Below, piece by piece: positions 23,322 to 46,868 of a DNA stretch of 51,010 bases. The DNA lies in NCBI GenBank assembly GCA_006226415.1, contig SBGZ01000075.1:1-51010 (forward strand). Reading direction: 5' to 3'. Positions within the stretch are counted from its first letter, which is position 1. Each line of letters opens with the position of its first letter. A model generated the notes under the pieces. It was not told where the DNA came from, did no database searches, and saw nothing but the letters and a program-made list of their open reading frames with translations. A program made the translations under genes and the position numbers. Source of the stretch: Alphaproteobacteria bacterium. GTDB lineage: Bacteria > Pseudomonadota > Alphaproteobacteria > M2410.

Positions 23322-24092
23322 ATGGTTGATGAGAGCGCGAAAAACGAGAAGACTTCTGACAACCTCCCAAGGTACCAGCAGGTTGCCGCTGCCCTCATGG
23401 CTGACATCGAAAGCGGCCGGTGTCCTGTCGGGTCTCTCTTAAAAACTGAATACGAGCTGTGCGACGAATTTAAAGTTTCGCGCTATACGGTTCGCGAAGC
23501 CTTGCGATTGCTTTTCGAGGCGGGCCTTGTTTCGCGGCGGCGCGGCGCCGGGACGGTTGTCATCGCTACCAAACAGCCACCGACCTTCAATCATGCGCTG
23601 GATACGATTGACGATCTGGTGGAATATGCCAATGAAACGCATATTGAATTTTCGCAAGTCACGAAAGGGTCCATGCCCACGCAATTGGCCAAGAAATTCA
23701 AATTGCCATCTGGGAAATCCTGGATCTGTGCGGTCGGGCTGCGGTACAAAGACCTTGACCCGCGGCCGATGTGCGTCACCAACAGCTTTGTGGATGTGCG
23801 CCTTGAGGGCATTCAAAAATTCTTCGACAATCCGCCTAGAACTATTGCGGAAACCATCGAAGAAGAGTTTGGCGTATTGATTTCTCGCATTGAGCAATTC
23901 ATAGAGGCGGTCGCGCTCACACCCGAACAAGCCAAAGCTTTAAAGGCCGAAGCTGGAGGGCCAGGCCTTCGAATTGTCCGCCAATTTCTTGATGACGAGG
24001 GACAAACTGTTCAGTTGACGGAAAGTATTTACCCCGCCAGCCGGGTGTCGGTGTCTATGTCTTTTGACCGCAAAGACTTTAATCCTCAATAA
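23322..24092 (+). CDS. GntR-family transcriptional regulator (HutC/UTRA subfamily)
   Basis: 256 residues. The N-terminal winged helix (about residues 15-85) holds EYELCDEFKVSRYTVREALR and the wing GLVSRRRGAGTVV. The C-terminal UTRA ligand-binding domain spans about 100-245. It is co-directional with the gcdH unit (21-base gap, AAGGAA site), so it probably regulates that unit. Control of the convergent lutBC genes is an alternative. It is distinct from the window's other GntR protein, HutC (35855-36589). The effector is unknown. Its 3' end overlaps lutC by 14 bases tail to tail. Confidence 0.88.
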   Translation: MVDESAKNEKTSDNLPRYQQVAAALMADIESGRCPVGSLLKTEYELCDEFKVSRYTVREALRLLFEAGLVSRRRGAGTVVIATKQPPTFNHALDTIDDLVEYANETHIEFSQVTKGSMPTQLAKKFKLPSGKSWICAVGLRYKDLDPRPMCVTNSFVDVRLEGIQKFFDNPPRTIAETIEEEFGVLISRIEQFIEAVALTPEQAKALKAEAGGPGLRIVRQFLDDEGQTVQLTESIYPASRVSVSMSFDRKDFNPQ

Positions 24093-26287: not shown

Positions 26288-28450
26288 ATGACAACGACCG
26301 CCCCCCAAAACGAACTGCACCACTTTCGCCTCAAAATCGACGGCATGTCTTGCGCCAATTGCGCCAAGTCGATCGAAAAATCCTTGCGCACGGTTCCGGG
26401 CGTGGAAATGGCGCAGGTCAATTTTGCACTTGAGAAGGCAGATATTCGCACGACCAGCGAAACGACGACGGAGGCGGATCTGATCCGTGCCGTTGAAGCA
26501 GCCGGATATGAGGGGCGTGACTGGCGGGAGGCGCAAAAGGGCGCTCAAGCGCCAAGCACCGGCCTTGGCGAAGGCACGATTTTGTTGCTCTCCATCCTGC
26601 TTTCTCTGCCTTTAGTTTTGCCGATGTTGCCCATTGGGGTCCCCATGGTGCCCCCACTTATGCAGCTCGCGTTTGCGGCGCCGGTTCAATTTCTCATTGG
26701 CGGCCGCTTTTATCTGGGCGCCTGGCGCTCGCTGCGATCAGGCACGGCCAATATGGATGTGCTGGTTGCCCTGGGTACGAGCGCTGCCTTCTTTTACAGC
26801 CTCTATCTGGTCAATGTGCCTGGTGCGCATCTTTATTTTGAAGCCTCGGCGGTGATCATCACGCTGGTTCTTACGGGCAAGTGGCTTGAAACGCGCGCCA
26901 AAAAAAGCGCGGCAGAAGCCTTGCGCCTTCTCTCTCAATTACGACCGGAAATTGCGCACCTTAAGCGCGGCGACGGGTTTGTTGATGTCGATGTGGAAGA
27001 AATCCTGGTCGGCGACATTGTTCTTGTGAAGCCTGGCGAGCGCGTGCCGGTGGATGGAGATGTTCTTTCTGGCGCGTCGGAAATGGACAATTCCCATGTC
27101 ACCGGGGAAAGCGTTCCGGTGGCCGTTGCGCAGGACAGTAAAGTATATGGCGGCGCCGTTAACGGCGCAGGCGCGCTGGAGATTGCAGTCACAGCCGGTT
27201 TTGAGCATTCGCTTTTGGGCCGGGTCATTCAACTCACCGAAGAGGCTCAATTGTCCCGGGCGCCGATCTTGCGCCTTGTGGACCGTGTCTCGGCGATTTT
27301 TGTGCCGACCGTCCTGATCGTTTCAACACTCACCTTCGCGGGCTGGTATTTCGGCGGCCACAACTTTGAAACATCCCTCTTGCCGGCGATTGCTGTCCTG
27401 GTGATCGCATGCCCCTGTGCACTTGGGCTGGCCACGCCGACAGCATTGGTGGCTGGTCTTGGCGTTGCCGCCCGCACCGGGGTCTTGATCCGAGACATGG
27501 AAGCGATTGAGCGCGCGGGCGGACTGACAACAATCGTTTTTGACAAAACCGGCACGCTCACGGTGGGGCACCCGGAAGTCACCCATATTGACGGGGAGGA
27601 CCCCCTGGAAGTCTTGCGTCTGGCCGCCTCGGCTCAAATCCAAAGTGAGCATATTATCGGCCGGGCCCTTCTCGGCGCTGCCGCAGCAAAAGGGATTATC
27701 CTCCCAAACGCAGAGAACTTTGACTATGTGGTTGGCGAAGGCGTTTTTGCAAAAGTCGAAGACGCCCCCATTGCGGTTGGAAACAGTGCCCTGATGCAGC
27801 GCGCGGGCGTCTCGCTTGAAAGTACGACCTCTCAGGGCAGCGATGGCACGCAAATCTTTGTCGCGCGCCACCACAAGCCACTGGGGTCGATCACCCTTAC
27901 CGATTCCCTTCGCCAAGAGGCGGCAGGCGCGGTCAAACTGCTTAAAGCGCGCGGCCTTAAAACAGCGCTCCTTTCCGGTGATCGTCCCGACATTGCCCGC
28001 AAAGTGGGCGATGAACTCGGCATCGATGTTGCGCAAGGCAGCATGAAGCCAGATGAAAAATTGCGCTGGATTGAAGAAGCTCAGGGGGCCGGGGAGCGCA
28101 TTGCCATGATTGGCGATGGCATCAACGACGCCCCTGCCCTCGCCAAGGCGGATCTGGGTATCGCCATGGGTGAAGGCACCGATATCGCCATGGCGACAGC
28201 TGACATTACGCTTTTGCGGAATGATCTTGAACTGATCGCCCGCTCTCTCGAAATCGCTCAGGCGACGCACCGGAAGATCTGGCAAAATCTCGGCTGGGCC
28301 TTTGTCTATAACATCATCGGCATTCCCCTTGCCGCCCTTGGCCTTTTAGCGCCGACCTTTGCCGCGGCGGCGATGGCGCTTTCCTCCATCAGCGTGGTCA
28401 GCAATTCGTTGTTGCTGGCGCGCTCCAAGCCGAAGGAGGCCTTAAGATGA
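26288..28450 (+). CDS. copA: Copper-exporting P1B-type ATPase
   Basis: 720 residues in the inner membrane, exporting Cu+ from the cytosol. One N-terminal heavy-metal-binding domain has GMSCANC (about residues 19-25). About eight transmembrane helices follow, with the ion-path CPC motif in VIACPCALGLATPTAL, the phosphorylation motif DKTGTLT and the hinge MIGDGINDAPALAKADLG. No ribosome binding site precedes the ATG, consistent with the leaderless promoter. cueR follows with a 4-base overlap, giving a self-contained copper response. It differs from the second ATPase here, CcoI (41695-43869), which serves oxidase assembly. Confidence 0.96.
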   Translation: MTTTAPQNELHHFRLKIDGMSCANCAKSIEKSLRTVPGVEMAQVNFALEKADIRTTSETTTEADLIRAVEAAGYEGRDWREAQKGAQAPSTGLGEGTILLLSILLSLPLVLPMLPIGVPMVPPLMQLAFAAPVQFLIGGRFYLGAWRSLRSGTANMDVLVALGTSAAFFYSLYLVNVPGAHLYFEASAVIITLVLTGKWLETRAKKSAAEALRLLSQLRPEIAHLKRGDGFVDVDVEEILVGDIVLVKPGERVPVDGDVLSGASEMDNSHVTGESVPVAVAQDSKVYGGAVNGAGALEIAVTAGFEHSLLGRVIQLTEEAQLSRAPILRLVDRVSAIFVPTVLIVSTLTFAGWYFGGHNFETSLLPAIAVLVIACPCALGLATPTALVAGLGVAARTGVLIRDMEAIERAGGLTTIVFDKTGTLTVGHPEVTHIDGEDPLEVLRLAASAQIQSEHIIGRALLGAAAAKGIILPNAENFDYVVGEGVFAKVEDAPIAVGNSALMQRAGVSLESTTSQGSDGTQIFVARHHKPLGSITLTDSLRQEAAGAVKLLKARGLKTALLSGDRPDIARKVGDELGIDVAQGSMKPDEKLRWIEEAQGAGERIAMIGDGINDAPALAKADLGIAMGEGTDIAMATADITLLRNDLELIARSLEIAQATHRKIWQNLGWAFVYNIIGIPLAALGLLAPTFAAAAMALSSISVVSNSLLLARSKPKEALR

Positions 28451-30224: not shown

Positions 30225-31262
30225 TCAGCGAGATCGCCGTGGGTCAAAGGCATCGCGTACCGCTTCCCCAATAAAAACCAGAAGGCTAAGAAGCACCGCA
30301 ATCGCCAGGAAAGACACCAGGCCCAACCAGGGCGCTTCTAGATGGTTTTTGCCCTGGCGCAACATTTCGCCGAGGGAGGGATAGGTCGCGGGCAGCCCAA
30401 AACCTAAAAAATCGAGCGCCGCCAAAGTCGATATCGAACCGCTGACGATAAACGGCAGGAGCGTCAGCGTTGCAACAAGAGCATTGGGAAGCAGTTGCTT
30501 GAAAATTATGCCGCCGGAAGATTGTCCCAGGGTGCGCGCCGCGGTGACATAGTCGAGATTTCGCCCCTTCAAGAACTCCGCCCGCACCAAACCAACCAGC
30601 GTGACCCAGCTGAAAAGGAGCAGGATCAAAATCAGCAGGGTGATCGAAGGTTTGAAAATTGCCGCAAAAATAATGAGCACATAAAGGGAGGGGACGGAGG
30701 TCCAGATTTCAATGAGCCGCTGCAGAATGAGGTCGACCCAGCCGCCGAAGTACCCTTGCACCGCTCCCGCGGCGACCCCAACGACCGAAGACAGAATAGA
30801 AAGCGTCAATCCGAACATCACAGACAACCGAAAGCCATGAAGGAGCCTGGCCAGGACATCACGGTGCTGGTCATCGGTGCCGAGCCAGTGACGCGCCGAG
30901 GGCGGCGCCGGAGCCGGTACATTCATGGCCACATCAACTGTGTCGTAACGAAAAGCGATGAGCGGCCAAATCATCCAGCCCTTCTCTTCGATCAAATCCA
31001 CAAGGTAAGGATCCTTGAAATCCGCCACCGTTGCAAAGTCGCCCCCAAAGGTCGTCTCGGGATAGGCTTTGGCCAATGGCAGATAGAAAGCGCCCTCGTA
31101 TCGTACCAACAAGGGGCGATCATTGGCGATGACATCCGCCAAAAGCGACACGCCAAACAACATCAGAAAAACACGCAGCGCCCATACGCCACGACGATTG
31201 GCGCGAAACGCCCGCAAGCGGCGCTCTGTCAAAGGGCTGAACTTGATCGTGACCGCGCGCAA
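30225..31262 (-). CDS. yejE: ABC transporter permease, YejE type (peptide/microcin C uptake)
   Basis: 345 residues, inner-membrane permease of the oligopeptide class. It has one N-terminal helix, a periplasmic segment with HWLGTDDQHRDVLARLLHGF (about residue 122), then five helices and the EAA-type loop YVTAARTLGQSSGGIIFKQLLPNA contacting the ATPase. The start is an unusual TTG at 31262, backed by a perfect AGGAGG 8 bases upstream; no ATG fits the conserved N-terminus. It follows yejB by three bases. Neither the binding protein (YejA) nor the ATPase (YejF) is in the window. Confidence 0.9.
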   Translation of the reverse strand: MRAVTIKFSPLTERRLRAFRANRRGVWALRVFLMLFGVSLLADVIANDRPLLVRYEGAFYLPLAKAYPETTFGGDFATVADFKDPYLVDLIEEKGWMIWPLIAFRYDTVDVAMNVPAPAPPSARHWLGTDDQHRDVLARLLHGFRLSVMFGLTLSILSSVVGVAAGAVQGYFGGWVDLILQRLIEIWTSVPSLYVLIIFAAIFKPSITLLILILLLFSWVTLVGLVRAEFLKGRNLDYVTAARTLGQSSGGIIFKQLLPNALVATLTLLPFIVSGSISTLAALDFLGFGLPATYPSLGEMLRQGKNHLEAPWLGLVSFLAIAVLLSLLVFIGEAVRDAFDPRRSR

Positions 31263-31265
31263 GGG

Positions 31266-32357
31266 TTAGACCTCCTGCGCGGTGAAAGTGATCCGCGGGT
31301 CGAGCCAGGTAAAGCTCACATCCACCACCAGATTGATGACAAGACCGACCAACGAATAGATAAAAAGCGATCCGAAGACGACCGGATAGTCGCGCCCGAC
31401 AATGGAATCGAACGCCAAGAGCCCCAGACCATCCAGCGAGAAGATGGTTTCAATGAGCAGAGATCCGGTGAAGAGGATTGCCATGAAAGCCGCTGGAAAC
31501 CCGGCGAGGATCACCAGAAAGGCGTTTCTTAGAACATGGCCATAGAGAATACGATCTTCCGACATGCCTTTCGCGCGCGCCGTCACCACATATTGTTTGC
31601 CGATTTCTTCCAGAAAGGCATTGCGGGTCATCAGCGTCAGTGTGGCAAAGGAGGCAATGGACAATGAAAGGAGCGGCAAGACCAGGTGCCAAAAATAGTC
31701 AGCCACCTTGTGAAAGAAGCCAAACTCTGACCAGCCTTCAGACACAAGCCCGCGCAAAGGAAAGATGTCGAGGAAGGAGCCGCCCGCGAAAAAGACCATG
31801 AGCAGCACGGCAAAAAGAAACCCGGGGATCGCATAACCCACCACGACCACAAAGCTGGTCCAGGCATCAAAGGCTGACCCTGCCCTTACCGCCTTGGTGA
31901 TACCCAGGGGAATAGAAACGAGGTAGGCCAGAAGGGTCGACCAAAGACCAAGAGAAATGGAGACCGGCAGTTTTTCGAGTATGAGGTCCAGAACCGGCTT
32001 GTCCTGAAAATAACTCTCGCCCAAATCAAAGTGGAGATAATTCCAGAGCATCTCCACATAGCGCTCATGGGCAGGCTTGTCGAAACCGTAGAGACGTTCA
32101 AGTTCGGCAATGAATTCCGGATCCAACCCCTGGGCGCCGCGATAGCTTGAGCCCTTGTCTTCGCCGCCCCCGACTGCCTGACTGCCGCCGCCGCCGCCAA
32201 TCGTGGCTGTTGCGGCAGCATCCATGCCGGAAAACTTTGCGGCCATGCGCTCGACCGGCCCGCCAGGCGCAAATTGGACAATGACAAAAGTCAGGGTCAG
32301 AATGCCGATCAAGGTCGGCACCATGAGTGCCAGGCGCCTTAAGATGTAACCCGCCAT
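31266..32357 (-). CDS. yejB: ABC transporter permease, YejB type (peptide/microcin C uptake)
   Basis: 363 residues. It starts MAGYILRRLALMVPTLIGIL and has the Gly-rich low-complexity insert (about residues 53-72) and QGLDPEFIAELERLYGFDKP segment typical of YejB. Five further helices follow, with an EAA loop YVVTARAKGMSEDRILYGHV, and the end is SFTWLDPRITF. It is paired with YejE as a heterodimeric permease for oligopeptides. Upstream, a terminator isolates it from the SYLF gene, so its promoter should lie within 32358-32390, where I see no convincing -35/-10. Confidence 0.92.
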   Translation of the reverse strand: MAGYILRRLALMVPTLIGILTLTFVIVQFAPGGPVERMAAKFSGMDAAATATIGGGGGSQAVGGGEDKGSSYRGAQGLDPEFIAELERLYGFDKPAHERYVEMLWNYLHFDLGESYFQDKPVLDLILEKLPVSISLGLWSTLLAYLVSIPLGITKAVRAGSAFDAWTSFVVVVGYAIPGFLFAVLLMVFFAGGSFLDIFPLRGLVSEGWSEFGFFHKVADYFWHLVLPLLSLSIASFATLTLMTRNAFLEEIGKQYVVTARAKGMSEDRILYGHVLRNAFLVILAGFPAAFMAILFTGSLLIETIFSLDGLGLLAFDSIVGRDYPVVFGSLFIYSLVGLVINLVVDVSFTWLDPRITFTAQEV

Positions 32358-32456: not shown

Positions 32457-33005
32457 TTAGCGGGCGACCTTGCTGATTTTTGTTCCTTCCAAGGAGACGT
32501 TGTACATCAGCCCCTTGTTGGAGAAGATAAAGCCTACGATCGGCTCTTGAACATTTTTTGTGTCGATTTGACCGCCAGCCCCAACGTTGACGACAGCAAC
32601 AGAACCATCCAGACCCACTTCCCAACCGTTGGAACGGCGGAAGTTATCGAGACTATGCGGATCCAGGAAAATCAGGATCTGCGACTTAACCTGCACGCCC
32701 AATTGGAAGCCAATAGAGCCCGAGGCCAGGTTGTAATAGTCGACTGTGCGGCCATTCATGAGCAGCGCCCCTTCGCCGTACTCGCCGCCGAGACCAATGC
32801 CGCCTTTGATAATGTCCGGGAAAACCAGAACGCCATCTGCCTTAGCCACCAGCGCGTCACCCCCCTTGACAGTTTCACTAAAGGCCACCAGCGCAGACTG
32901 GACCTTGGCATCAATTTCCCGGCGTGAGGATTCTTGTCCATGTCCGGTGCAGCCAGTAACCAGGACTGCTACAAACAAGGATGCGAAGAGGGTACGAAAC
33001 TTCAT
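32457..33005 (-). CDS. SYLF/YSC84-type lipid-binding lipoprotein
   Basis: 182 residues. The signal peptide ends in a lipobox, VLVTGC near residue 18, so the mature protein is probably lipid-anchored. The rest matches the SYLF/Ysc84 actin-binding-like domain, recognised by ADGVLVFPDIIKGGIGLGGE, YGEGALLMNGRTVDYYNLAS and LGVQVKSQILIFL. Bacterial members bind phosphoinositide-like or other lipids, with poorly defined roles in the envelope. ATG 33005 has GGAGG five bases upstream and is preferred over a TTG at 33017. It is a single-gene unit with its own candidate promoter and terminator. Confidence 0.88.
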   Translation of the reverse strand: MKFRTLFASLFVAVLVTGCTGHGQESSRREIDAKVQSALVAFSETVKGGDALVAKADGVLVFPDIIKGGIGLGGEYGEGALLMNGRTVDYYNLASGSIGFQLGVQVKSQILIFLDPHSLDNFRRSNGWEVGLDGSVAVVNVGAGGQIDTKNVQEPIVGFIFSNKGLMYNVSLEGTKISKVAR

Positions 33006-33024
33006 TATGGCCTCCAATTGGCAC

Positions 33025-33054
33025 TTAAAACTCGAAACGAATCAATTTCGTCAA
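33025..33054 (-). promoter_or_regulatory. Candidate sigma70-type promoter of the SYLF lipoprotein gene
   Basis: On the minus strand TTGACG (33054-33049) and TTTTAA (33030-33025) are 18 bases apart. The start point would be about 33018, leaving a leader of roughly 13 bases that contains the GGAGG ribosome binding site. Confidence 0.5.
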
Positions 33055-33124
33055 TCATGAATCGCGATGCGCCGAAATGCCAGTGTTTTTTTAGGTTTTA
33101 GCGCGATCGAGCGAGTCAAATTTG

Positions 33125-33138
33125 CAACAAATTTGTTG
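33125..33138. repeat. AT-rich perfect palindrome between hutI and the SYLF gene
   Basis: CAACAAATTTGTTG is a perfect 14-base palindrome, and a second CAAATTTG occurs a few bases to its left (33117-33124). It lies about 70 bases upstream of the candidate SYLF promoter and directly after the hutI 3' hairpin. It could be an operator; no regulator is indicated. Confidence 0.4.
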
Positions 33139-33159
33139 AGATTACAGAACGGTAATCTC
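33138..33159 (-). terminator. Hairpin at the 3' end of hutI
   Basis: A perfect 8-bp stem (GAGATTAC with GTAATCTC) and a 6-base loop overlap the last codons and the TAA stop of hutI. No clean T-run follows (AACAAATTTG), so it may protect the 3' end rather than terminate transcription. Confidence 0.4.
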
Positions 33160-34374
33160 CCCACCGCCCATGACAACTTTGTCCGGACGCGCGCCGGACA
33201 TCCAGTAACAAAGGTCGGCGGGTGCACCAATCTTGTAGTGACAAAAGTCCGCATCCATACCAACGGCCAAGCGCCCCTTACGCGTACTTTCTCCTAAGGC
33301 CTTGGCGGCATTGACGGTTACGCCTCGCAAGGCCTCTGTCGGGGTCAGACCGAAGAGCGTGCAGCCCATGTTGAGAATGAGACGCAATGAAGAAATTGGC
33401 GAGGAGCCGGGATTGCAGTCAGAGGCGAGCGCCATGGACACACCTTCCTTACGGAAAGTTTCGATAGGCGGGCGGCGCGTTTCTTTCAAAGTGTAAAAAG
33501 CGCCCGGCAGAAGGACAGCGACTGTTCCAGCTCTTGCCATGGCCTCAACCCCTTTCGGGTTTGTATATTCCAAATGGTCCGCGGAAAGCCCGTCAAAAGA
33601 GGCTGCGAGTGCAGCGCCGTCCAAATCGCTGAGCTGATCCGCATGGAGCTTGACCGGCAACCCCAGATCCTTTGCGGTTTCGAACACGCGGGCAATCTCG
33701 TCAGGGCTGAAGGCAATCCCCTCGCAAAACCCGTCCACAGCATCGGCAAGGCCCTCTTCAGCCAGGCGCGGCAGGATTTGTGAACATATCAGATCGATGT
33801 AGTCGCCCGCGCGGCCGGCATATTCTGGCGGCAAGGCATGGGCGGCCAGACAGGAGGTTTTTATGGTCAGGCCCAATTCGGCACCAATCGCTCGAGCGAC
33901 CTTGAGCATTTTGATTTCGCTTTGAAGATCAAGGCCGTAACCGGATTTGATCTCGAGGGTGGTCACGCCCTCCCGCAGGAGATCACGGGCGCGCGGCAGA
34001 GATGCGGCAAAGAGCTCTTCTTCGGAGGCAGCGCGTGTTGCTTTAACGGTGGAAAGAATGCCGCCGCCCGCGCGGGCGATCTCTTCGTAGGTTGCCCCTT
34101 CCAGCCGCATCTCAAATTCGCGGGCGCGATTGCCGCCAAATACGAGGTGGGTGTGGCAATCAATGAGGCCTGGAAAAACCCAGCCGCCGTTCAAAGACAC
34201 GATCTGGGGCGTTGCGGCAATTTTGTCCCTTGGCGCATCGACCTCCGCCCCCACCCAGACAATTTCATTGTCGCGGACGGCGATCAGCCCTTGCTCAATG
34301 AGACCGAGGCCCTCGCCCTCACAGGTGACGAGGCCCGCACCTTTCCATATTCTGTCCCAGGGTTTGTCTGACAT
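33142..34374 (-). CDS. hutI: Imidazolonepropionase
   Basis: Third enzyme of histidine breakdown, hydrolysing 4-imidazolone-5-propionate to N-formimino-L-glutamate. 410 residues of the amidohydrolase fold with metal ligands in GLIDCHTHLVFGGNRAREFE (His74, His76). Further signatures are EIKSGYGLDLQSEIKMLKVA, the downstream metal-site KLHADQLSD near residue 250, and ALASDCNPGSSP near 316. It is transcribed divergently from hutF over a 71-base gap that contains a HutC-like operator. The last codons form part of a hairpin. Confidence 0.96.
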   Translation of the reverse strand: MSDKPWDRIWKGAGLVTCEGEGLGLIEQGLIAVRDNEIVWVGAEVDAPRDKIAATPQIVSLNGGWVFPGLIDCHTHLVFGGNRAREFEMRLEGATYEEIARAGGGILSTVKATRAASEEELFAASLPRARDLLREGVTTLEIKSGYGLDLQSEIKMLKVARAIGAELGLTIKTSCLAAHALPPEYAGRAGDYIDLICSQILPRLAEEGLADAVDGFCEGIAFSPDEIARVFETAKDLGLPVKLHADQLSDLDGAALAASFDGLSADHLEYTNPKGVEAMARAGTVAVLLPGAFYTLKETRRPPIETFRKEGVSMALASDCNPGSSPISSLRLILNMGCTLFGLTPTEALRGVTVNAAKALGESTRKGRLAVGMDADFCHYKIGAPADLCYWMSGARPDKVVMGGGEITVL

Positions 34375-34404
34375 GGTCCCTTCGGCCTTGCTTTTCCAGC
34401 CTTT

Positions 34405-34439
34405 TTGGCTAATGGTATATATAACCCTATAACGATAGG
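34405..34439 (+). promoter_or_regulatory. hutF promoter with HutC-like operator in the spacer
   Basis: TTGGCT (34405-34410), a 17-base spacer and TATAAC (34428-34433) form a good sigma70-type promoter. The spacer holds TGGTATATATAACC (34413-34426), a near-palindromic HutC-like site that also lies in the hutI leader region on the other strand. A small repeat, CCTAT-AACG-ATAGG (34426-34439), follows. The predicted start (about 34440) leaves only about six leader bases before the hutF ATG. Confidence 0.65.
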
Positions 34440-34445
34440 TGCTTC

Positions 34446-35810
34446 ATGCGCAAGATTTTTGCCCGTTACGCCCTCAGCCCCATTGGCTGGCTTTCCAATG
34501 TTGAAATTCACATCGACTCATCAGGCCATATTGCGGCGCTGACGCCTCTCTCACAAGAGGTGCCTGACTGCAGCGCGCTGGTCTTGCCCGGCATGAGCAA
34601 TCTCCATTCCCATGCCTTTCAGCGGGCCATGGCCGGGCTCGGCGAAACACGCGGTCAGGCAGATGACGATTTCTGGTCCTGGCGCCACACCATGTACAGG
34701 CTCGCAAACAGCGTCACCCCCGATCAACTCAAGACCATCGCGTCTCATCTTTATATGGAGATGATTGAAGCCGGTTACACGGAAGTTGCCGAGTTTCACT
34801 ATTTGCACAGGCTTGTGCCGGACGAAGAGGTTCCCGGCTTTGCCGCGGCACAGGCGCTGATCGTTGCGGCCGAGGTTGCGGGTATCCGCCTGACACTGGT
34901 GCCGGTGCTTTATGAGCGCTCGGGTTTCGGGGCAAAGGGGCCCTTGGAGGAACAGGCGCGTTTTGCTCTGTCGCCTGAAGAATATCTTGAGCTGCTGAGC
35001 GCCTTAAAACCTCTTCAATCTTCGCAAATGCGCCTGGGTATTGGGTTTCACAGCCTGCGTGCTGTTCATGAAACCTCGATCGACCTGGTGCTGGCAGGTG
35101 CGGCGAAGCTGGGCCTTAGCGGACCCATCCACATTCATATCGCGGAGCAACAGGGCGAGGTGGATCAATGCCTGGAGGCACACCGCCAGCGCCCGGTGGA
35201 ATGGCTCTACAACAATGTGGACGTCAATGAGCGTTGGTGCCTCGTGCACGCGACGCACCTGAGCGACAAGGAGGCCGAACTCATTGCCCGGTCGGGCGCG
35301 GTGGCGGGGCTCTGCCCCACCACGGAAGCCAATCTTGGTGATGGCACTTTCGACCTCACCCGCTTTGAAGCGCTCGGCGGACACTATGGGGTGGGCTCAG
35401 ATAGCCATATTACGGTCGACCCCTTTGATGAGCTTCGCTGGCTTGAATATTCAAATCGGCTTCAGGCGCGCAAAAGGTTGATTGCCGGTCGCGCGGGTGA
35501 ACAGCCTTGCGGGCGGCAACTCTTCCAGCAGGCGCTTGCGGGCGGCCGGGCGGTCACCTGCGGCACAGGCGGGCTGGAGGTAGGGGCGCCTGCGGACCTC
35601 CTCCTGATCCAAAATGAAAACCCGCTTTTGGCCGGTCGCAGCGCCGATGAAATGCTCAACAGTCTGATATTTGCGGGTGCTAAAGGATTGATTTCTGAGG
35701 TGCTGGTAGGCGGCATTTCCATCGCGGTAAAGGGTGAACACCCCCAGAAATCTGCCCTTTTGCCCAGCTACACAGAAACGCTCCGACAGCTCATTGACCG
35801 CCATCCTTGA
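34446..35810 (+). CDS. hutF: Formimidoylglutamate deiminase
   Basis: Converts N-formimino-L-glutamate to N-formyl-L-glutamate plus ammonia, the branch used with HutG. 454 residues with the amidohydrolase/deaminase metal site GMSNLHSHAFQRAMAGLGE (His54, His56), then IHIAEQQGEVDQCLEAH (metal-ligand His), CLVHATHLSD and GSDSHITVDPFDELRWLE. The same frame continues to a TGA that overlaps the -35 region of the next promoter. It is the first gene rightward of the hutI/hutF divergence. Presence of HutF means that glutamate and formate, not formamide, are the end products. Confidence 0.96.
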   Translation: MRKIFARYALSPIGWLSNVEIHIDSSGHIAALTPLSQEVPDCSALVLPGMSNLHSHAFQRAMAGLGETRGQADDDFWSWRHTMYRLANSVTPDQLKTIASHLYMEMIEAGYTEVAEFHYLHRLVPDEEVPGFAAAQALIVAAEVAGIRLTLVPVLYERSGFGAKGPLEEQARFALSPEEYLELLSALKPLQSSQMRLGIGFHSLRAVHETSIDLVLAGAAKLGLSGPIHIHIAEQQGEVDQCLEAHRQRPVEWLYNNVDVNERWCLVHATHLSDKEAELIARSGAVAGLCPTTEANLGDGTFDLTRFEALGGHYGVGSDSHITVDPFDELRWLEYSNRLQARKRLIAGRAGEQPCGRQLFQQALAGGRAVTCGTGGLEVGAPADLLLIQNENPLLAGRSADEMLNSLIFAGAKGLISEVLVGGISIAVKGEHPQKSALLPSYTETLRQLIDRHP

Positions 35811-35835
35811 TATTGGTATATACCACCCTATTCTA
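35807..35835 (+). promoter_or_regulatory. hutC promoter with HutC-like operator in the spacer
   Basis: TTGATA (35807-35812) and TATTCT (35829-35834) are 16 bases apart. Between them is TGGTATATACCA (35814-35825), a perfect 12-base palindrome related to the site before hutF. Binding there would block RNA polymerase, which implies autoregulation of hutC and the genes after it. Confidence 0.68.
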
Positions 35836-35854
35836 ATATGAGATTCCAACTTCC

Positions 35855-36589
35855 ATGAACACTCAAAGCCAGCTATCCGACCCGCTCTACCTTAAGGTCA
35901 AGAAGCATATTCTCGAGCAGATCCGCAAAGGCGTTTGGGGGGCTGCTGACCGGATCCCTTCTGAAAATGCCCTGATTGAAGAGCTGGGCGCCTCGAAGAT
36001 GACCGTCAATCGGGCGCTACGGGAAATGGCGCAGGAAGGTCACCTCATCCGTATCGTGGGCGTGGGCAGCTTTGTGGCCGAATCAAAAGTTCAGGTGCAC
36101 CCGCTTGAGATCCGCAACATTGCCGACGAAATTGCCGAGCGCGGCCACGTCCATTCGGCCCGGGTAGAACATCTGGCCGAGGAAAAGGCCAATCAACGCC
36201 TCGCCGAGGATCTTGGCATTGCGCCCGGCGCGCCAGTATTCCATTCGGTCATCCTGCATCTTGAAAACGATGAGCCGCTTCAACTGGAAGACCGCTATGT
36301 CAATCCAGCGGCGGCGCCGGATTATATGTCCTGCGATTTCACGCAAGTGACGCCCGCAGAATATCTCATGAAAGTCGCGCCGCTGCAGGAAGTCGAGCAT
36401 ATCGTCGAGGCGCAAATGCCATCGTCTTACGTGGCGCGCCTGCTTGAATTGCAGCCCAATGAGCCCTGCCTTGTGGTTACCCGCCGCACATGGGCACTCG
36501 GTCATGTGGCCTCTGGCGCGCGCCTCTATCACCCCGGTTCCACCTACCGCGTGGGCGGACGCTTTTCGCCCGCCACCCCGCCGTCTTAA
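35855..36589 (+). CDS. hutC: Histidine utilization repressor
   Basis: 244 residues of the GntR family, HutC subfamily. The winged helix has RIPSENALIEELGASKMTVN followed by RALREMAQEGHLIRIVGVGSF (about residues 30-75). The UTRA domain (about 95-235) is where urocanate is bound in studied HutC proteins, relieving repression. The HutC-specific HPLEIRNIADEIAERGHVH and HPGSTYRVGGRF motifs are present. It lies inside the hut operon, and two TGGTATATA-type operators nearby are its likely targets. hutU follows after 12 bases. Confidence 0.95.
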   Translation: MNTQSQLSDPLYLKVKKHILEQIRKGVWGAADRIPSENALIEELGASKMTVNRALREMAQEGHLIRIVGVGSFVAESKVQVHPLEIRNIADEIAERGHVHSARVEHLAEEKANQRLAEDLGIAPGAPVFHSVILHLENDEPLQLEDRYVNPAAAPDYMSCDFTQVTPAEYLMKVAPLQEVEHIVEAQMPSSYVARLLELQPNEPCLVVTRRTWALGHVASGARLYHPGSTYRVGGRFSPATPPS

Positions 36590-36601
36590 AAGGACAACCT
36601 C

Positions 36602-38284
36602 ATGATCCAGAAATTTACCCGCCGCGACAATACGCGTCTTGTCCGCGCCCCGCGTGGGAGCGAACTCACTGCCAAAAGCTGGGCAACAGAAGCTCCCATG
36701 CGCATGCTGATGAACAACCTGGACCCGGAAGTGGCCGAGCGCCCTGAAGAGCTTGTGGTTTATGGCGGCATTGGCCGGGCGGCGCGGAACTGGGAGTGCT
36801 TTGACAAAATCGTCCAGACCCTGCGCGCCATGAATGAGGATGAAAGCCTGTTGGTGCAATCAGGCAAACCGGTCGCCGTCATGCGCACCCACAAGCAAGC
36901 GCCGCGCGTTCTCATCGCCAATTCCAATCTGGTGCCCCATTGGGCCCATTGGGAACATTTCAATGAACTCGATCGCAAGGGCCTCATGATGTATGGGCAG
37001 ATGACGGCGGGTTCATGGATCTACATCGGCAGCCAGGGCATTGTGCAAGGCACCTATGAAACCTTTGTCGAGATGGGCCACCAACACTTTGGCGGATCGC
37101 TTAAAGGCAAGTGGATCTTAACCGCCGGCCTTGGCGGTATGGGCGGCGCTCAGCCGCTGGCGGCCAAGATGGCCGGCGCCTCCATGATCGCCATCGAAGT
37201 TCAGCCGAGCCGCATCGAAAAGCGCCTGGAGACCGGTTATCTTGATACATCTACGGATAATCTGGAGGAGGCGCTGCGCCTGGTGGAAGCCGCTCACGCC
37301 GAAGGTAAAGCCATTACTGTGGGGCTTTTGGGTAATGCGGCAGAGCTTGTGCCCGCGATGTATGCCAAGGGTATTCGGCCAGATGCGCTGACGGACCAAA
37401 CTTCGGCCCATGACGTGACCAACGGCTATTGCCCCAAGGGATGGAGCGTCGCCCAGTGGGAAGCAAAACGCGAGAGCGCGCCTGAGGAAGTCGCTCAAGC
37501 GGCGCGTGCCTCGATCAAGGAACATGTGGCGGCCATGGTGGCCTTCTCCAAGGACGGCGTGCCCACCGTCGACTACGGCAACAACATCCGCCAGGTCGCC
37601 TTTGAAGAGGGATTAGAGGAGGCTTTTTGCTTCCCGGGCTTTGTACCGGCTTATGTGCGGCCACTCTTTTGCCGCGGCAAGGGTCCCTTCCGCTGGGTCG
37701 CGCTGTCCGGCGATCCGGAGGACATCTACAAGACCGATGCCAAGGTGAAGGAGCTCATCCCGGATGATCCACACCTTCACAATTGGCTCGACATGGCCCG
37801 CGAGCATATTCATTTCCAGGGTCTGCCGTCGCGCATCTGCTGGGTGGGCCTGGGCGATCGGGACCGGCTCGGCCTCGCCTTTAACGACATGGTGAAGTCA
37901 GGTGAACTGAAAGCACCGGTCGTGATCGGCCGCGATCATTTGGATTCCGGCTCAGTTGCCAGCCCGAACCGGGAAACAGAGGCCATGATGGATGGGTCCG
38001 ACGCGGTGTCCGACTGGCCGCTTCTCAATGCCCTGCTTTCCTGCGCCGGTGGCGCGACCTGGGTGTCGCTGCATCACGGCGGCGGTGTGGGCATGGGGTT
38101 TTCGCAACATGCCGGGCTCGTCATTCTTTGCGACGGTACCGAGGATGCGGCGACCCGTATTAGCCGCGTGCTGTGGAATGACCCAGCGCTTGGTGTCGTG
38201 CGTCATGCAGATGCGGGCTATCAGGAGGCTATCGACTGCGCGCGCGAGAAAGGCCTCAACATGCCGATGCTGGAGGGGAAGTAA
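36602..38284 (+). CDS. hutU: Urocanate hydratase (urocanase)
   Basis: Second step of histidine breakdown, urocanate to imidazolonepropionate, with tightly bound NAD+. 560 residues, the usual length. The nucleotide-binding glycine loop reads [20 protein letters not shown] (about residue 175). Other urocanase signatures are [19 protein letters not shown] near residue 265, the active-site Cys region [20 protein letters not shown] near 345-360, and [17 protein letters not shown] near 490. It has SD AAGGA upstream and hutH six bases downstream. Confidence 0.98.
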
Positions 38285-38289: not shown

Positions 38290-39843
38290 ATGGCTCGCAA
38301 ACTTACTGTGACACCCGGTGACCTGAACTTCGCCATGCTGCGCGAGACTTTTCGTGGGCCGGTCGAGGTGCATTTGGCCGCTGAGGCCGATGGCCCTATT
38401 GATGCTTCGTGCCAAGCCATTGAGAATATTCTTTCCTCTGGCCAGACGGTCTATGGCGTCAATACCGGGTTTGGCTTGCTTGCCAACAAACGCATTGAGC
38501 CCGATCAACTTGCTGAGCTGCAGCGCAATCTGGTGCTTTCCCATGCGGCGGGCACAGGTTCGCCGCTTGAAGATGCCACGGTGCGCCTTCTGATGCTGCT
38601 CAAGATGAATTCGCTCGCGCGCGGACATTCAGGCGTTCGGCGGGAGGTCATCGACATGCTAGCGCGTTTTCTGGACGAAGAGCTATATCCCGTGATCCCG
38701 AGCCAGGGCTCGGTTGGCGCCTCCGGCGATCTGGCGCCGCTTGCGCATATGAGCGCGGCCATGATCGGGGAAGGCGAGGCGAAGCTTAAAGGCGTTACCA
38801 TGCCGGCGCGCGATGCTTTGAAAAAGATCGGGCTTGAACCTTTGGTGCTGGGCCCCAAGGAAGGCCTGGCCCTTCTCAATGGCACGCAGGTTTCAACTGC
38901 TTTGGCGATGAAAAATTACTACAAGATCAAACGCCTTTATAATGCGGCGATCCTGACCGGTGCCCTCTCCATTGACGCCATTAAAGGCTCGGATGTGCCT
39001 TTCGACGCGCGCATTCACACGGTGCGCGGCCAAAAAGGGCAAATCGAAGCGGCGCGGCTTTATCGCTCCATTCTTTTAAAGAGCGAAATCCGGCAATCCC
39101 ATGCAGATTGCGACAGGGTTCAAGACCCCTATTCCATCCGCTGTCAGCCGCAGGTTATGGGCGCGGCGCTCGATATGATGGATCACGCGGCGCGCATTCT
39201 CCTTATTGAAAGTAACGCGGTCTCTGACAATCCGTTGATTTTTTCCGAAGACGAGGATGTGCTCTCTGGCGGTAATTTCCATGCTGAGCCCGTTGCGATG
39301 GCGGCAGATGTTCTGGCCATTGCCGCTGCAGAAGTGGGCGCGATCACCGAGCGGCGCATCTCGCTCTTGATTGATCCTCACTTGAGTGAGCTTCCAGCCT
39401 TCCTCGTGAAAGAGAGCGGCCTTAACTCCGGTTTCATGATCGCGCAGGTGACGGCGGCAGCACTAGCCTCTGAGAACAAGAGCTATGCACATCCGGCGAG
39501 CGTGGACAGCCTGCCGACCTCGGCCAATCAGGAAGACCATGTTTCCATGGCTACCTTTGCGGCGCGGCGCCTCGGGCAGATCGCCGAGAATTTGGCGGGT
39601 ATTATCGCCATTGAGTATTTAGCGGCGGCACAGGGGATCGAGTTCCACCGCCCCTTAAAAACCAGTGCGCCGCTTGAGGATTTTATGGCGCTTCTGCGCG
39701 CCGAAGTGCCCCCTTATGACAAGGACCGCTTCTTCGCCCCAGACATCGAAGCCGCCAAACGGATCGTCATGTCGCGGGAGATCGACACCCTGATCGACAA
39801 GCACATGCCGGAATGGGGCGAACGGGACGCGCAACTCATATGA
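38290..39843 (+). CDS. hutH: Histidine ammonia-lyase (histidase)
   Basis: First step of histidine breakdown, non-oxidative deamination to urocanate. 517 residues. The MIO cofactor arises from Ala-Ser-Gly in GSVGASGDLAPLAH (residues 144-146). The Tyr region QTVYGVNTGFGLL near residue 55 and the QDPYSIRCQPQVMGA segment near residue 277 complete the active site. GGGGAAG lies 8 bases before the ATG. Its TGA overlaps the hutG start by four bases. Confidence 0.98.
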   Translation: MARKLTVTPGDLNFAMLRETFRGPVEVHLAAEADGPIDASCQAIENILSSGQTVYGVNTGFGLLANKRIEPDQLAELQRNLVLSHAAGTGSPLEDATVRLLMLLKMNSLARGHSGVRREVIDMLARFLDEELYPVIPSQGSVGASGDLAPLAHMSAAMIGEGEAKLKGVTMPARDALKKIGLEPLVLGPKEGLALLNGTQVSTALAMKNYYKIKRLYNAAILTGALSIDAIKGSDVPFDARIHTVRGQKGQIEAARLYRSILLKSEIRQSHADCDRVQDPYSIRCQPQVMGAALDMMDHAARILLIESNAVSDNPLIFSEDEDVLSGGNFHAEPVAMAADVLAIAAAEVGAITERRISLLIDPHLSELPAFLVKESGLNSGFMIAQVTAAALASENKSYAHPASVDSLPTSANQEDHVSMATFAARRLGQIAENLAGIIAIEYLAAAQGIEFHRPLKTSAPLEDFMALLRAEVPPYDKDRFFAPDIEAAKRIVMSREIDTLIDKHMPEWGERDAQLI

Positions 39844-40637
39844 GCGCCATGGCCCCCTATCACTTGACGGAGGGCGCGAGCCCTATCCTCATTTCAGTCC
39901 CTCACTGCGGCACATATATCCCTGACGAGGTCCTTGAGGGGATGACGGATGAGGCAAAGGCTCTGACTGACACGGATTGGCACGTGGACCGGCTTTACAG
40001 CTGTCTAACAGATCAAGACGTGACTTTGCTCTCGGCCGCACATTCGCGCTACGTCATTGATCTCAATCGCCCGCCTGACGGCCAACCTCTTTACCCGGGC
40101 CAGACCGAGACCGCGCTTTGCCCGGTTGAAACCTTTGCCGGTAAAGCGCTTTACTGTGTTGATCAAGAGCCCGGTCCTGATGAAATCAAGAGACGGCTTG
40201 AGACCTATTGGCAGCCCTATCACGCGGCCCTTGAGGGACAAATTGCCCGTCTTAAAGCCCTCCACGGCCAGGTTTTGTTGTGGGATGCACATTCTATCGC
40301 CAATGAAGTGCCGCGCCTCTTCGATGGCCGGCTGCCGGACCTAAATTTTGGGACCAATGGCGGGCTGGCCTGCGGCGAGACCCTGCTTGAAGCCGTGATG
40401 GAGGTCGCCTGCGCGCAAGATCGATATAGCTACATTGCCAATGGCCGGTTCAAGGGCGGCTATATCACTCGCCACTACGGCGATCCGAAAAAGGGAACCC
40501 ACGCCATACAGCTGGAGCTGGCCCAAGATACCTACATGGATCAAACGCCGCCGTTTAAATATCGAGACGACAAAGCGCCTCATTTTCAGGTCTTGCTGAA
40601 ACAGTTTATTGCGACTCTTTTGCAGAGATTCACCTGA
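39840..40637 (+). CDS. hutG: N-formylglutamate amidohydrolase (deformylase)
   Basis: Final step of this hut route, N-formyl-L-glutamate to L-glutamate and formate. 265 residues of the FGase family. Signatures are ISVPHCGTYIPDE near residue 20, DTDWHVDRLY, YVIDLNRPPDG near residue 72, LLWDAHSIANEVPRLFDG and the terminal HAIQLELAQDTYM. The frame is open further upstream inside hutH, but ATG 39840 gives the normal length and the 4-base ATGA coupling with hutH. It is last gene of the hutFCUHG run, and no clear terminator follows. Confidence 0.95.
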   Translation: MSAMAPYHLTEGASPILISVPHCGTYIPDEVLEGMTDEAKALTDTDWHVDRLYSCLTDQDVTLLSAAHSRYVIDLNRPPDGQPLYPGQTETALCPVETFAGKALYCVDQEPGPDEIKRRLETYWQPYHAALEGQIARLKALHGQVLLWDAHSIANEVPRLFDGRLPDLNFGTNGGLACGETLLEAVMEVACAQDRYSYIANGRFKGGYITRHYGDPKKGTHAIQLELAQDTYMDQTPPFKYRDDKAPHFQVLLKQFIATLLQRFT

Positions 40638-41694: not shown

Positions 41695-43869
41695 CTATTT
41701 CCTGCGCTCCCAGTTGAGGCGCATGGCATTGGCGGTGACAATCAGCGATGAGGATGACATGGCAATGGCGGCAAATAAAGGGGTTACGAAGCCGGCAATG
41801 GCAAGCGGGATGGCCACTGCGTTATAAAGAAACGCAAATCCGAAATTTTCAAGGATCAAGCGGCGGGCGAATGTGGCGGTGCGAATGGCCTTAACAACTG
41901 GACCCAGATTTTTCCCCTGGAAGATAAAGTCTGCGGCGGTCTGCGAAATATCCGCTGCCTCAGCGGGTGACATGGAGACATGAGCTGCCCGAAGCGCTGG
42001 CGCATCATTCAGGCCATCGCCGACCATGAGCACCTTGGCGCCCTCTTTCTTGAGGCGCTCCAAATAGGCGATCTTATCATTCGGGCGTTGCTGGGCATGC
42101 ACTTCATCAAACTTCAAATGCAGGGCCTGTGCGGCGACCACAGCCTCCCGATCTCCGGACAGGAGATGGGTGCGATAGTCATGCGCCAGGTAGTCAAGCA
42201 CGGCGGCGGCGTCTTCTTTAATGGTATCCGTCACCGCAATCCATTTGGGCGTATTTGACCCCTTGCGGATCCAAAGGCCCGATGTGTCGGCCCCATGACC
42301 CTCGACACCGCCGACCCATTCGGCATTGCCCATTCGAACTTCTTCGCCCTGATAGCGGCCGCTCAATCCCATGCCGGGCATTTCCACAAGACTTTCAAGA
42401 GGCAGAGCCTGGCAGTCCTTGAAACTCTCTGCAACGACTTTCGAAAGCGGGTGGCTGCTCTTGAGAGCCAGGCTCCTTGCCAGCGCCCTTTCTTCCTCAG
42501 AGAGCCCGGTTGCGGCTCGCAGCTTCAAATCGCCTGTCGTAATCGTGCCGGTTTTGTCAAAAACCACCTGATCAATATCCGCCAGACGCTCCAAACCATC
42601 GGCAGATTTGACCAAGACGCCTAGCCTGAGAAGTTTACCGCTGGCGACAACCTGAACAACGGGCACCGCCAGGCCGAGGGCGCAGGGACAGGTGATAATG
42701 AGAACCGCGATGGCCGACATGAGCGCGCCGTGTACTGTCGCGCCAAAAGCCAGCCAGCCCAGGAAAGTGCCCGCCGCCAAAATGTGAACGGCTGGCGCGT
42801 AGATGCGGGCAATTCGATCTGCCATCTGCACATAACCGGCACGGCCTTGCTCGGCGGCTTCCATCAGGCGCACGATTTCGGCCAAGAGGCTATCTTCATC
42901 ACTCTTGGTGACCCTCACTTCGAGCGGCGCCTCCTGATTGATCGTTCCGGCGAACACTAATGTTCCCGGCACAACGCGCTCCGGCAGGCTTTCGCCAGTG
43001 ACAAGACTGGCGTCCATGTGGCTAATACCTTTAACAACCTCGCCGTCCGCAGGCATGCGGCCACCGGCAGGCACCGCCACAAGATCGCCGGGCAAGAGAT
43101 CGCACACACCGACAGTCTCATAACTGCCATCGGCCAGGATGCGCTGGGCTGTTACCGCGCGCAGCGACATGAGGTTTTGTGCAGCGGAGCAAGCCCGGTT
43201 GCGCATGCGTATATCGAGATAGCGGCCAATCAGAAGGAAGAAGAGCAAACTGACACTGGCATCAAAATAGACATCGTGACCACCGCGAATGGTTTCAAAG
43301 AGGCTCATGCCTGTGGCAAGCAGAACCGCCAATGAAATGGGCACATCCATGTTGAGCGACCTCCCCTTGAGGGCGCGCACTGCAGAGGCGAAGAAAGGTT
43401 GCCCTGCATAGGCAACGGCCGGGATGGCGATCAGCGCAGAAAGCCAGTGAAACAGGTGGAGGGTTTCCGGGTCCATGTCGCTGGCCTGACCGGACCAGAC
43501 GGAAACAGAAAACAACATGACGTTGGCTGCAGCAAAACCGGCTACCGCCATGGCTCGCAAGAGCCGTCTGGCCTGATTTTCATCGGCGGTCGCCAGAAGC
43601 TTGGGATCGAAAGGGGTGGCTTCGAAGCCAATGTCTTTCATCTTCGTCAGGATGTCCCGGTCCGTGAGAGTTTTGCTCTCCCACTCCACATGAACGCGCC
43701 TGGTGGAAAGGTTGCAGCGCGCCTTGGAAACCCCCTCTAGCTCGCCAAGGCCGCGCTCGATCTTTCGCATGCAGCCAGCGCAGTGCATTCCGTTGACGAT
43801 CAGATCAAGTTCGTGGATCGGAGCTTTTGCTCCCTCACCCTGGATATCAACGGGATGCGCGAGTGCCAT
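41695..43869 (-). CDS. ccoI: CcoI/FixI copper P-type ATPase for cbb3 oxidase assembly
   Basis: 724 residues. The N-terminal metal-binding domain has GMHCAGC near residue 28. About eight helices follow, with the CPC motif in LIITCPCALGLAVPV, phosphorylation motif DKTGTITTGDL and MVGDGLNDAPALRAAHVSMS. CcoI-type ATPases move copper out of the cytoplasm slowly to supply the CuB centre of CcoN, unlike the detoxifying CopA at 26288-28450. The position between ccoH and ccoS assigns it to CcoI rather than CopA. It is 4 bases from ccoH. Confidence 0.95.
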   Translation of the reverse strand: MALAHPVDIQGEGAKAPIHELDLIVNGMHCAGCMRKIERGLGELEGVSKARCNLSTRRVHVEWESKTLTDRDILTKMKDIGFEATPFDPKLLATADENQARRLLRAMAVAGFAAANVMLFSVSVWSGQASDMDPETLHLFHWLSALIAIPAVAYAGQPFFASAVRALKGRSLNMDVPISLAVLLATGMSLFETIRGGHDVYFDASVSLLFFLLIGRYLDIRMRNRACSAAQNLMSLRAVTAQRILADGSYETVGVCDLLPGDLVAVPAGGRMPADGEVVKGISHMDASLVTGESLPERVVPGTLVFAGTINQEAPLEVRVTKSDEDSLLAEIVRLMEAAEQGRAGYVQMADRIARIYAPAVHILAAGTFLGWLAFGATVHGALMSAIAVLIITCPCALGLAVPVVQVVASGKLLRLGVLVKSADGLERLADIDQVVFDKTGTITTGDLKLRAATGLSEEERALARSLALKSSHPLSKVVAESFKDCQALPLESLVEMPGMGLSGRYQGEEVRMGNAEWVGGVEGHGADTSGLWIRKGSNTPKWIAVTDTIKEDAAAVLDYLAHDYRTHLLSGDREAVVAAQALHLKFDEVHAQQRPNDKIAYLERLKKEGAKVLMVGDGLNDAPALRAAHVSMSPAEAADISQTAADFIFQGKNLGPVVKAIRTATFARRLILENFGFAFLYNAVAIPLAIAGFVTPLFAAIAMSSSSLIVTANAMRLNWERRK

Positions 43870-45983: not shown

Positions 45984-46868
45984 TTACTCGCCTCCCCCCA
46001 GGGAGTGGACATAAATCGCTAGTTCCTTGATATCGCCTTCGGTCAGACGGCCGCTCCACGCTGGCATCTGGCCGCGACGGCCATTCGTGATGGATTCCAT
46101 GATCGTGTCCCGATCTCCGCCGTAGAGCCAAATGGCATCTGTCAGATCGGGCGCGCCCATCATGGTCATCCCTTCGCCGCCCTCCCCATGGCACATGGCA
46201 CATTGATCCGCAAAAACGGTCGCGCCCGCGGCGGCTTTTGCCGCGTCATGGTTTTGGTCGCTTATTTGCAGCACGAATTCCACAACAGCACTGCCTTCTT
46301 CCGGTGTCAGGATTTCATCCTTGATGAAAGCAGGCATGTCGTTGATGCGGGTTTCATCATCGTCGTCCCAGCGAATGCCGTGAGAGATGGTCACCTGGAT
46401 ATCCTCCAGGGTGCCGCCCCAAAGCCAATCATCATCATTGAGGTTGGGGAAGCCAAGGGCTCCTTGCGCGCCCGAGCCATGACATGGGGCGCAATTGTCG
46501 CCAAACAGCGATTTGCCGCTGGCCAAAGCGACCTGGAACAGCTCATCATTGTTTTGGACCGCCTCAATGGGCTGCGCCGCGATCTGGTCGCGATAGACAT
46601 TGAGCGCAGCCTCATTGGCCGCAATCTGATCGGTGACCTTAACCCGCTGCGAATAACCAAGCAGACCCTTGGTATATTCCCAACCATTGGCGCCCGGGAA
46701 AGGCCAGGCTGGCATTAAAATCACATAGCCAAGCGACCAGATAACCGAAACTACAAAGGTCCAGACCCACCATTTGGGAAGTGGGGTGTTAAGTTCTTCA
46801 ATGCCGTCCCACGAATGACCCGTGGTCTCGACACCCGAGATTTCATCGATTTTGGGTTTGTCGCTCAT
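45984..46868 (-). CDS. ccoP: cbb3-type cytochrome c oxidase subunit III (diheme)
   Basis: 294 residues. One N-terminal helix (about residues 32-55, after NTPLPKWWVWTF) anchors two periplasmic cytochrome c domains with heme motifs CAPCH (about 127-131) and CAMCH (about 221-225). It carries electrons from cytochrome c to CcoO/CcoN. The start overlaps the ccoQ stop (ATGA). It is last gene of ccoNOQP, followed by the GNRA hairpin. Confidence 0.97.
   Translation of the reverse strand: MSDKPKIDEISGVETTGHSWDGIEELNTPLPKWWVWTFVVSVIWSLGYVILMPAWPFPGANGWEYTKGLLGYSQRVKVTDQIAANEAALNVYRDQIAAQPIEAVQNNDELFQVALASGKSLFGDNCAPCHGSGAQGALGFPNLNDDDWLWGGTLEDIQVTISHGIRWDDDDETRINDMPAFIKDEILTPEEGSAVVEFVLQISDQNHDAAKAAAGATVFADQCAMCHGEGGEGMTMMGAPDLTDAIWLYGGDRDTIMESITNGRRGQMPAWSGRLTEGDIKELAIYVHSLGGGE

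Follow-up and report, generated by a model that had tools for sequence, protein, structure and literature searches.

A conserved lopsided motif at the hut promoters of an uncultured alphaproteobacterial order is probably the HutC operator

Organization of the hut locus

The window, by which we mean the whole stretch of 51,010 nucleotides that was analysed, carries a hut cluster in which hutF, hutC, hutU, hutH and hutG are read in one direction, with hutC inside the cluster, and hutI is divergent:

33142..34374, minus strand: hutI, imidazolonepropionase, divergent (TIGR01224, 457 bits, cut-off 298; ATG at 34374)
34446..35810, plus strand: hutF, formimidoylglutamate deiminase (TIGR02022, 506 bits, cut-off 413; stop codon 35808-35810)
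35855..36589, plus strand: hutC, histidine utilization repressor of the GntR/HutC family (TIGR02018, 289.4 bits, cut-off 220)
36602..38284, plus strand: hutU, urocanate hydratase (TIGR01228, 964 bits, cut-off 375)
38290..39843, plus strand: hutH, histidine ammonia-lyase (TIGR01225, 701 bits, cut-off 539)
39813..40637, plus strand: hutG, N-formylglutamate deformylase (TIGR02017, 339 bits, cut-off 279; start codon uncertain)

The gene identities proposed in an earlier reading of the letters alone (the sequence-only reading) were borne out, with HutC, HutF, HutI, HutU, HutH and HutG each scoring above the curated family cut-off. For HutC, the TIGR02018 equivalog match was full-length (residues 12-237), and a second HutC model, NF011575, gave 256 bits, which is below its cut-off of 424. 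The intergenic gap between hutI and hutF measures 71 bp, the gaps from hutC to hutU and from hutU to hutH are 12 and 5 bp, respectively, and hutG overlaps hutH. Four genomes of the same order were compared, namely G000 (the genome of the window), G001 (a member of the same genus), G002 and G003; G000 and G001 are close relatives, their HutC proteins being 95-97% identical. All four genomes contain hutC, hutF and hutI, and the gene order appears to be the same in G002, where hutI, hutF and hutC were located by search and the remainder by eye.

Two genes from hutI lies a permease pair of the microcin C/oligopeptide YejB type (30225-32357), and similar ORFs were seen by eye at this place in G002 (locus L032). 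Also by eye, heavy-metal P-type ATPase-like genes were recognized on opposite strands at 26288-28450 and 41695-43869, both with N-terminal metal-binding motifs.

Two operator-like sites in the hut cluster

The sequence-only reading had described two promoters, before hutF and before hutC, each enclosing a probable HutC site. When re-read from the sequence, its hexamers, spacings and operator letters were all exact. With the boundaries that we argue for below, the two sites are:

34413..34426, plus strand: operator F, TGGTATATATAACC, between the divergent hutI and hutF (motif before hutF in four of four genomes)
35814..35827, plus strand: operator C, TGGTATATACCACC, a 12-bp palindrome plus an invariant CC (motif before hutC in four of four genomes)

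The perfect palindrome TGGTATATACCA occupies 35814-35825, between the hutF stop codon and the hutC ATG (35855), and an operator together with promoter-like sequence is present between these two genes. Site F differs from this palindrome at 2 of 12 positions. Its suggested position on the side of the divergent hutI was confirmed, since it falls within the 71-bp gap. The element TGGTATAT, previously taken as the shared core, occurs four times when both strands of the window are counted, where 0.30 would be expected; 0 of 100 shuffles reached this count. Three of these occurrences belong to sites F and C, the palindrome being counted twice, and the fourth is at 46670. TGGTATATACCA itself occurs once in the 2.45-Mb assembly, which is 84% complete.

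The motif is conserved and nearly confined to hut promoters

An unaligned motif search in the 110 bp before the hutF and hutC starts of the four genomes returned TNGTATATANNACC in 8/8 regions, with a consensus that reads T-N-GTATATA-N-N-ACC. The score of 22.6 bits compared with a mean of 13.3 in 25 mononucleotide-shuffled sets (sd 0.46, maximum 14.8). Without the close relative G001 it was likewise 22.6 bits, against a shuffled mean of 15.0 (sd 0.41, maximum 16.0, 25 shuffles). This pattern-free search was made because the pattern used for genome scans, GTATATAYNACC, was written after six of the eight sites had been seen in a loose GTATATAC scan and was therefore shaped on them; it recovered the other two. 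Across the four genomes GTATATAYNACC matched nine places, of which eight were the hutF and hutC promoters, all in the sense orientation, and in G000 it matched the two hut sites only. The reversed control of GTATATAYNACC matched no place in the four genomes. The sole place outside hut (G003:C340:6055-6066, corresponding to L130 1556-1567) is possibly a chance match and, by eye, sits in the gap separating a minus-strand ORF from an AraC-like ORF on the plus strand.

A search of the genome and its relatives for the palindrome had been recommended in the sequence-only reading. The revised pattern GTATATAYNACC finds the hut sites; the 12-bp TGGTATATACCA proved a poor probe: allowing up to two mismatches it matched 43 places per strand of the assembly, versus 31 for the reversed control. 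The looser pattern DGTATATAYH gave no enrichment over its control, and the two of its places that were inspected (G000:C56:5364 and G001:C150:225) both lie within ORFs.

We assign the sites to HutC because they are nearly confined to hut promoters next to hutC and resemble the known HutC core. Their conservation and genome-wide specificity beside a bona fide HutC agree with the earlier view that both are probable HutC sites, and we consider it very likely that sites F and C are HutC operators at which repression occurs by occlusion. Sequence comparison shows the identities of the genes as well as the motif, how well it is conserved and how specific it is to hut.

The conserved unit is lopsided

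Alignment of the eight sites led us to redraw the operator. TGGTATAT was not upheld as the conserved core, since its second base is G, A or T across the sites (TGG, TAG, TTG). Nor did the perfect palindrome stand as the unit: the key position of the right half is C at four sites and T at four, while the ACC beyond it is invariant over all eight, and the 12-bp version of site C had omitted the last two letters of this ACC. By sequence comparison, the conserved unit is a lopsided 14-bp T-N-GTATATA-Y-N-ACC, rather than TGGTATAT or the 12-bp palindrome. The core takes the form GTATATAC at four sites and GTATATAT at the other four. The T form stands before hutF and the C form before hutC in G000, G001 and G002, and this placement is reversed in G003, so the two forms look interchangeable.

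The Pseudomonas HutC operator Phut is described as TGTA-N2-TACA, with the sites PhutF and PhutU (PMC12977541, partial text). The sites reported here share with it the GTA-TA-TAC core and an overlap with the hutF sigma-70 elements. They are unlike it in three respects: the position preceding GTA need not be T, the right half-site is degenerate, and ACC comes after it. In numbers, the core GTnTAnAC is exact at four of the eight sites, including site C, and the remaining four, including site F, carry T for the last C. None of the eight fits both halves of TGTA-N2-TACA exactly: GTA is preceded by G, A or T, with TACC, TACT or TATA as the right half. The corrected operator boundaries thus matter for genome scans with the Pseudomonas consensus.

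A lopsided operator has parallels in the same repressor family. Native sites of NagR (YvoA) from Bacillus, and the DasR dre-sites, are non-palindromic, with G-7 in one half (PMC4333415, PMC4918961; partial texts). In the NagR-DNA structure, Arg48 reads G-4, Arg38 reads G-5 and Gly69 anchors the wing at G-7, and in native NagR sites G-7 is found almost only in the half-site without the double G (PMC4333415, partial text). At these contact positions the HutC studied here carries N38, K48 and G69, and residues 1-232 of YvoA chain 2wv0 align to its residues 1-236. The two proteins appear to share residue numbering, and site C has the dre-site form TGGT-N4-ACCA. Applied to this HutC, the NagR scheme would predict a free base at -5 and a G-7 in the weaker half-site, and this G-7 pairs with the central C of ACC. 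By this analogy, Asn38, Lys48 and Gly69 would fit the free second base and the invariant ACC. NagR differs in its effector, which is an amino sugar phosphate and not urocanate, and in having Arg38/Arg48 where this HutC has Asn38/Lys48. The lopsided site and the Lys48 variant together offer a small testable case of co-change between operator and repressor in the GntR/HutC family.

No paper carrying TGGTATATACCA, GGTTGTATAGGG or TTGTATATGGAAC was found in a literature search that covered the running text of mostly open-access papers, and a term search of PMC12772324 gave no operator sequence. The lopsided HutC motif may nevertheless already be printed, in the B. abortus HutC paper or in the supplement of a Bradyrhizobium study (PMC10454721, partial text).

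Placement of the probable operators relative to candidate promoters

The following promoter features were considered:

34393..34398, plus strand: candidate -35 of hutF, TTTCCA, 17 bp before TATATA; weaker than that of hutC
34416..34421, plus strand: candidate -10 of hutF, TATATA within operator F
34405..34433, plus strand: rival hutF promoter of the sequence-only reading, TTGGCT (34405-34410), 17 bp, TATAAC (34428-34433), enclosing operator F; the -35 is TTAGAA in G001
34437..34441, plus strand: AGGTG, likely hutF ribosome-binding site
35794..35799, plus strand: candidate -35 of a hutCUHG promoter, TTGACC, 17 bp before TATATA
35817..35822, plus strand: candidate -10, TATATA within operator C
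35807..35834, plus strand: rival hutC promoter of the sequence-only reading, TTGATA (35807-35812, overlapping the hutF stop codon), 16 bp, TATTCT (35829-35834), enclosing the palindrome of operator C

Promoters were scored with E. coli base frequencies, from which alphaproteobacterial promoters differ. A simple sigma-70 scan of 33000-38000 returned a single site, which is the hutC pair, whereas shuffled sequence gave 1.9 on average; taken as promoters, the two proposed pairs do not exceed chance. Likewise, neither of the two placements listed above scored clearly beyond shuffled regions (mean best 7.3, 95% point 10.8). We therefore state both placements as candidates and compare them across the eight orthologous promoters.

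According to the sequence-only reading, HutC binds in the spacer between TTGGCT or TTGATA and TATAAC or TATTCT. These pairs are indeed the top-scoring ones in G000, with 9.6 versus 9.1 at hutF and 11.7 versus 10.3 at hutC when compared with TATATA as the -10. A good -10 recurs at the same offset before G001 hutF and G003 hutC, and the -35 part of this placement ranks 4 of 105 offsets over all eight promoters. It is not a conserved design, however. When the -10 was kept at this place and the spacer set to the best of 15-19 bp, the eight promoters scored 9.6, 11.7, 9.0, 0.6, -8.8, 7.5, 1.2 and 10.9; the three failures are G001 hutC (0.6), G002 hutF (-8.8) and G003 hutF (1.2), and at the -35 places G001 has TTAGAA and GTAAGA. 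Moreover, a start at about 34440, assuming seven bases after the -10, would leave hutF a 6-nt leader and cut off AGGTG, and hutF of G002 and of G003 would likewise lose its likely ribosome-binding site. As leaderless transcripts are common in Alphaproteobacteria, the loss of this site is only suggestive against the TTGGCT/TATAAC promoter. When the -35 part was scored alone over the eight promoters, the offset that makes the operator's TATATA the -10 ranked 1 of 105; ranks 2 and 3 were the same hexamers with other spacers. At the top-ranked offset the first position is T in 7/8 and the second in 6/8 promoters. The hexamer at this distance before hutC is TTGACC in G000 and G001, TTGATC in G002 and TTTACT in G003, a conservation that may be due to coding, as it overlaps the 3′ end of hutF. 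At hutF, the candidate -35 is good only in G000 and G001 (4.6 and 4.3) and poor in G002 and G003 (-1.6 and 1.6). For G002 hutF, TTGACC-N17-TACCAT, located further upstream, is a better candidate; with it, the operator would coincide with the start site. A hutF start at about 34428, as expected with TATATA as the -10, would keep AGGTG. We judge the chances about even that TATATA within the operator is the -10 with a -35 lying 17 bp upstream; this agrees better with the eight promoters as a group, although some of them do not fit. The spacer placement appears somewhat unlikely. Under either of them, HutC would cover promoter elements.

A different role for the letters downstream of ACC also has to be weighed. 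The CTAT element found there could be a third HutC half-site rather than a -10: TAT occurs 13-15 bp after the operator start in six of the eight sites (motif width 16), G002 hutC shares GTATAGGGTA on the other strand with the Rhizobiaceae upstream site, and three half-sites are reported for the Phut site of hutF in P. fluorescens SBW25 (PMC12977541, partial text). We think this doubtful, as the element is missing at G002 hutF (TGGAG), is CAT at G003 hutF, and in G000 and G001 hutC reads TATTC, a poor half-site; these letters would also fit a -10. That the conserved sequence is a hut promoter element only, with no repressor site, would agree with the uniform orientation of 8/8 sites relative to transcription, the TATATA within them and the conserved ACC. 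A housekeeping element, however, would be expected genome-wide, and GTATATAYNACC matches a single non-hut place across the four genomes; the sequence is also similar to the known HutC operator and to the Rhizobiaceae sites that flank hutC. We regard this explanation as very improbable. Still less credible is that another regulator binds the sites, for instance the second GntR/UTRA protein of the window (23322-24092). This protein is the second match to the HutC model in G000, but with 93.8 bits it remains far below the cut-off of 220 and it is not encoded beside the hut genes, while in each of the four genomes the motif sits at the hut promoters, adjacent to hutC. The neighbours of the gene for this second regulator resemble, by eye, an acyl-CoA dehydrogenase, an enoyl-CoA hydratase and a two-gene cluster of the lactate-utilization type.

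Proposed regulation of the hut genes

Repression by HutC would then operate as follows. One HutC subunit may read the GTATA half-site with its recognition helix, while the second half-site, with a core weakened by C or T at the key position, may be held via the outer ACC, probably by the wing. HutC on the operator would cover the -10 region, most likely the operator's own TATATA. Bound at site F it would block hutF and, since this site is in the 71-bp gap, probably also the divergent hutI; bound at site C it would block hutC-hutU-hutH-hutG. Urocanate formed by HutH would release HutC and thereby induce the pathway. As the first gene of its own operon, hutC would be autoregulated. HutC binding, the wing contact, the start sites, the urocanate response and the control of hutI are what we infer here. 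For hutI, no convincing promoter was found in the four genomes, where the best scores were 6.4, 6.9, 7.0 and 7.9 against the shuffled mean best of 7.3.

A gap of 12 bp separates hutC from hutU, and hutH and hutG come next, so control by site C should extend beyond hutC to the catabolic genes. This layout makes site C the probable operator of the main catabolic operon, in which the repressor gene comes first. The sequence-only reading, which had predicted an autoregulation of hutC separate from hutF, was in this respect incomplete, and the main operon should be included.

In Pseudomonas, urocanate releases HutC, hutC is autoregulated and the hutF footprints cover promoter elements (PMC12977541, partial text). 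By analogy with this system, the predicted steric repression relieved by urocanate appears sound. The arrangement of the genes differs, as in Pseudomonas hutF diverges from hutCD, whereas here hutF, hutC, hutU, hutH and hutG are co-directional and hutI is divergent. Computed HutC regulons of Proteobacteria cover 113 genomes, and for the alphaproteobacteria among these they include HutC orthologues and hut targets (PMC5343134, partial text). What is new here is a HutC regulon in an uncultured order of alphaproteobacteria, now placed there by the comparison of four genomes; the regulatory logic itself is textbook, and occlusion is known for HutC.

Lopsided sites beside Lys48 HutC proteins outside the order

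The candidate sites of Rhizobiaceae and relatives have in common with the present ones the left half TNGTATA and a HutC with lysine 48; AC at the same distance (GT-N7-AC) is shared by at least one site of each locus. Their right core is mostly GG, where it is AY in this order. We compared hutC loci by residue 48, using the best 80 of 110 loci found, of which 31 were Lys48 and 49 Arg48; an expression classed 76 of the 80 (45 R, 31 K), and L033, L055, L058 and L067 were assigned to Arg by the printed text. In a first, stricter count, GTATAT-N3-ACC occurred anywhere in the locus in 14/31 Lys48 loci and 1/49 others. The loosened pattern TNGTATA-N4-AC, which was shaped after looking at the Lys48 loci so that its counts are not independent of the data, was found no more than 260 bp upstream or 160 bp downstream of hutC in 31/31 Lys48 loci and 9/49 others. 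With the right core required not to be AC, the counts were 29/31 and 3/49. The two Lys48 loci lacking such a site are the order's own L031 and L032, in which the tested stretch holds the C form, and the three Arg48 exceptions that have a lopsided site are Rhizobiaceae. The symmetric pattern TnGTnTAnACnA did not separate the groups (3/31 Lys48, 11/49 others).

For the 29 Lys48 loci that do not belong to the order but to Rhizobiaceae and relatives, a data-driven motif search found GGTTGTATA[TG]GG near hutC, a consensus that is printed on the other strand. The corresponding search in the Arg48 set gave a GC-rich, probably coding motif, which we rejected as an operator. The symmetric sites of the Arg48 loci were obtained by scanning from a symmetric consensus, an approach that favours symmetry.

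The tree requires three Lys/Arg label changes, in this order, in the main Rhizobiaceae clade and in one further row. With so few independent events, and with the Rhizobiaceae exceptions, shared descent explains as much as residue 48, and Lys48 as the cause of the lopsided site is a lead and no finding. That Lys48 HutCs use a distinct class of lopsided operators, TNGTATA-N4-AC(C), with one half read in the major groove and the other held mainly by the wing, and that this order and the Rhizobiaceae reached it separately, strikes us as rather speculative. If true, the Lys48 class would be a natural test of how a change in the GntR recognition helix reshapes operator symmetry.

Lopsided TTGTATA[TG]GG sites flank hutC on one side or on both in L034-L075 (Rhizobiaceae and relatives), those upstream at some 130-200 bp from the matched hutC start and those downstream 0-15 bp past its end. 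The upstream site of these loci usually runs on into TACCATATGA.
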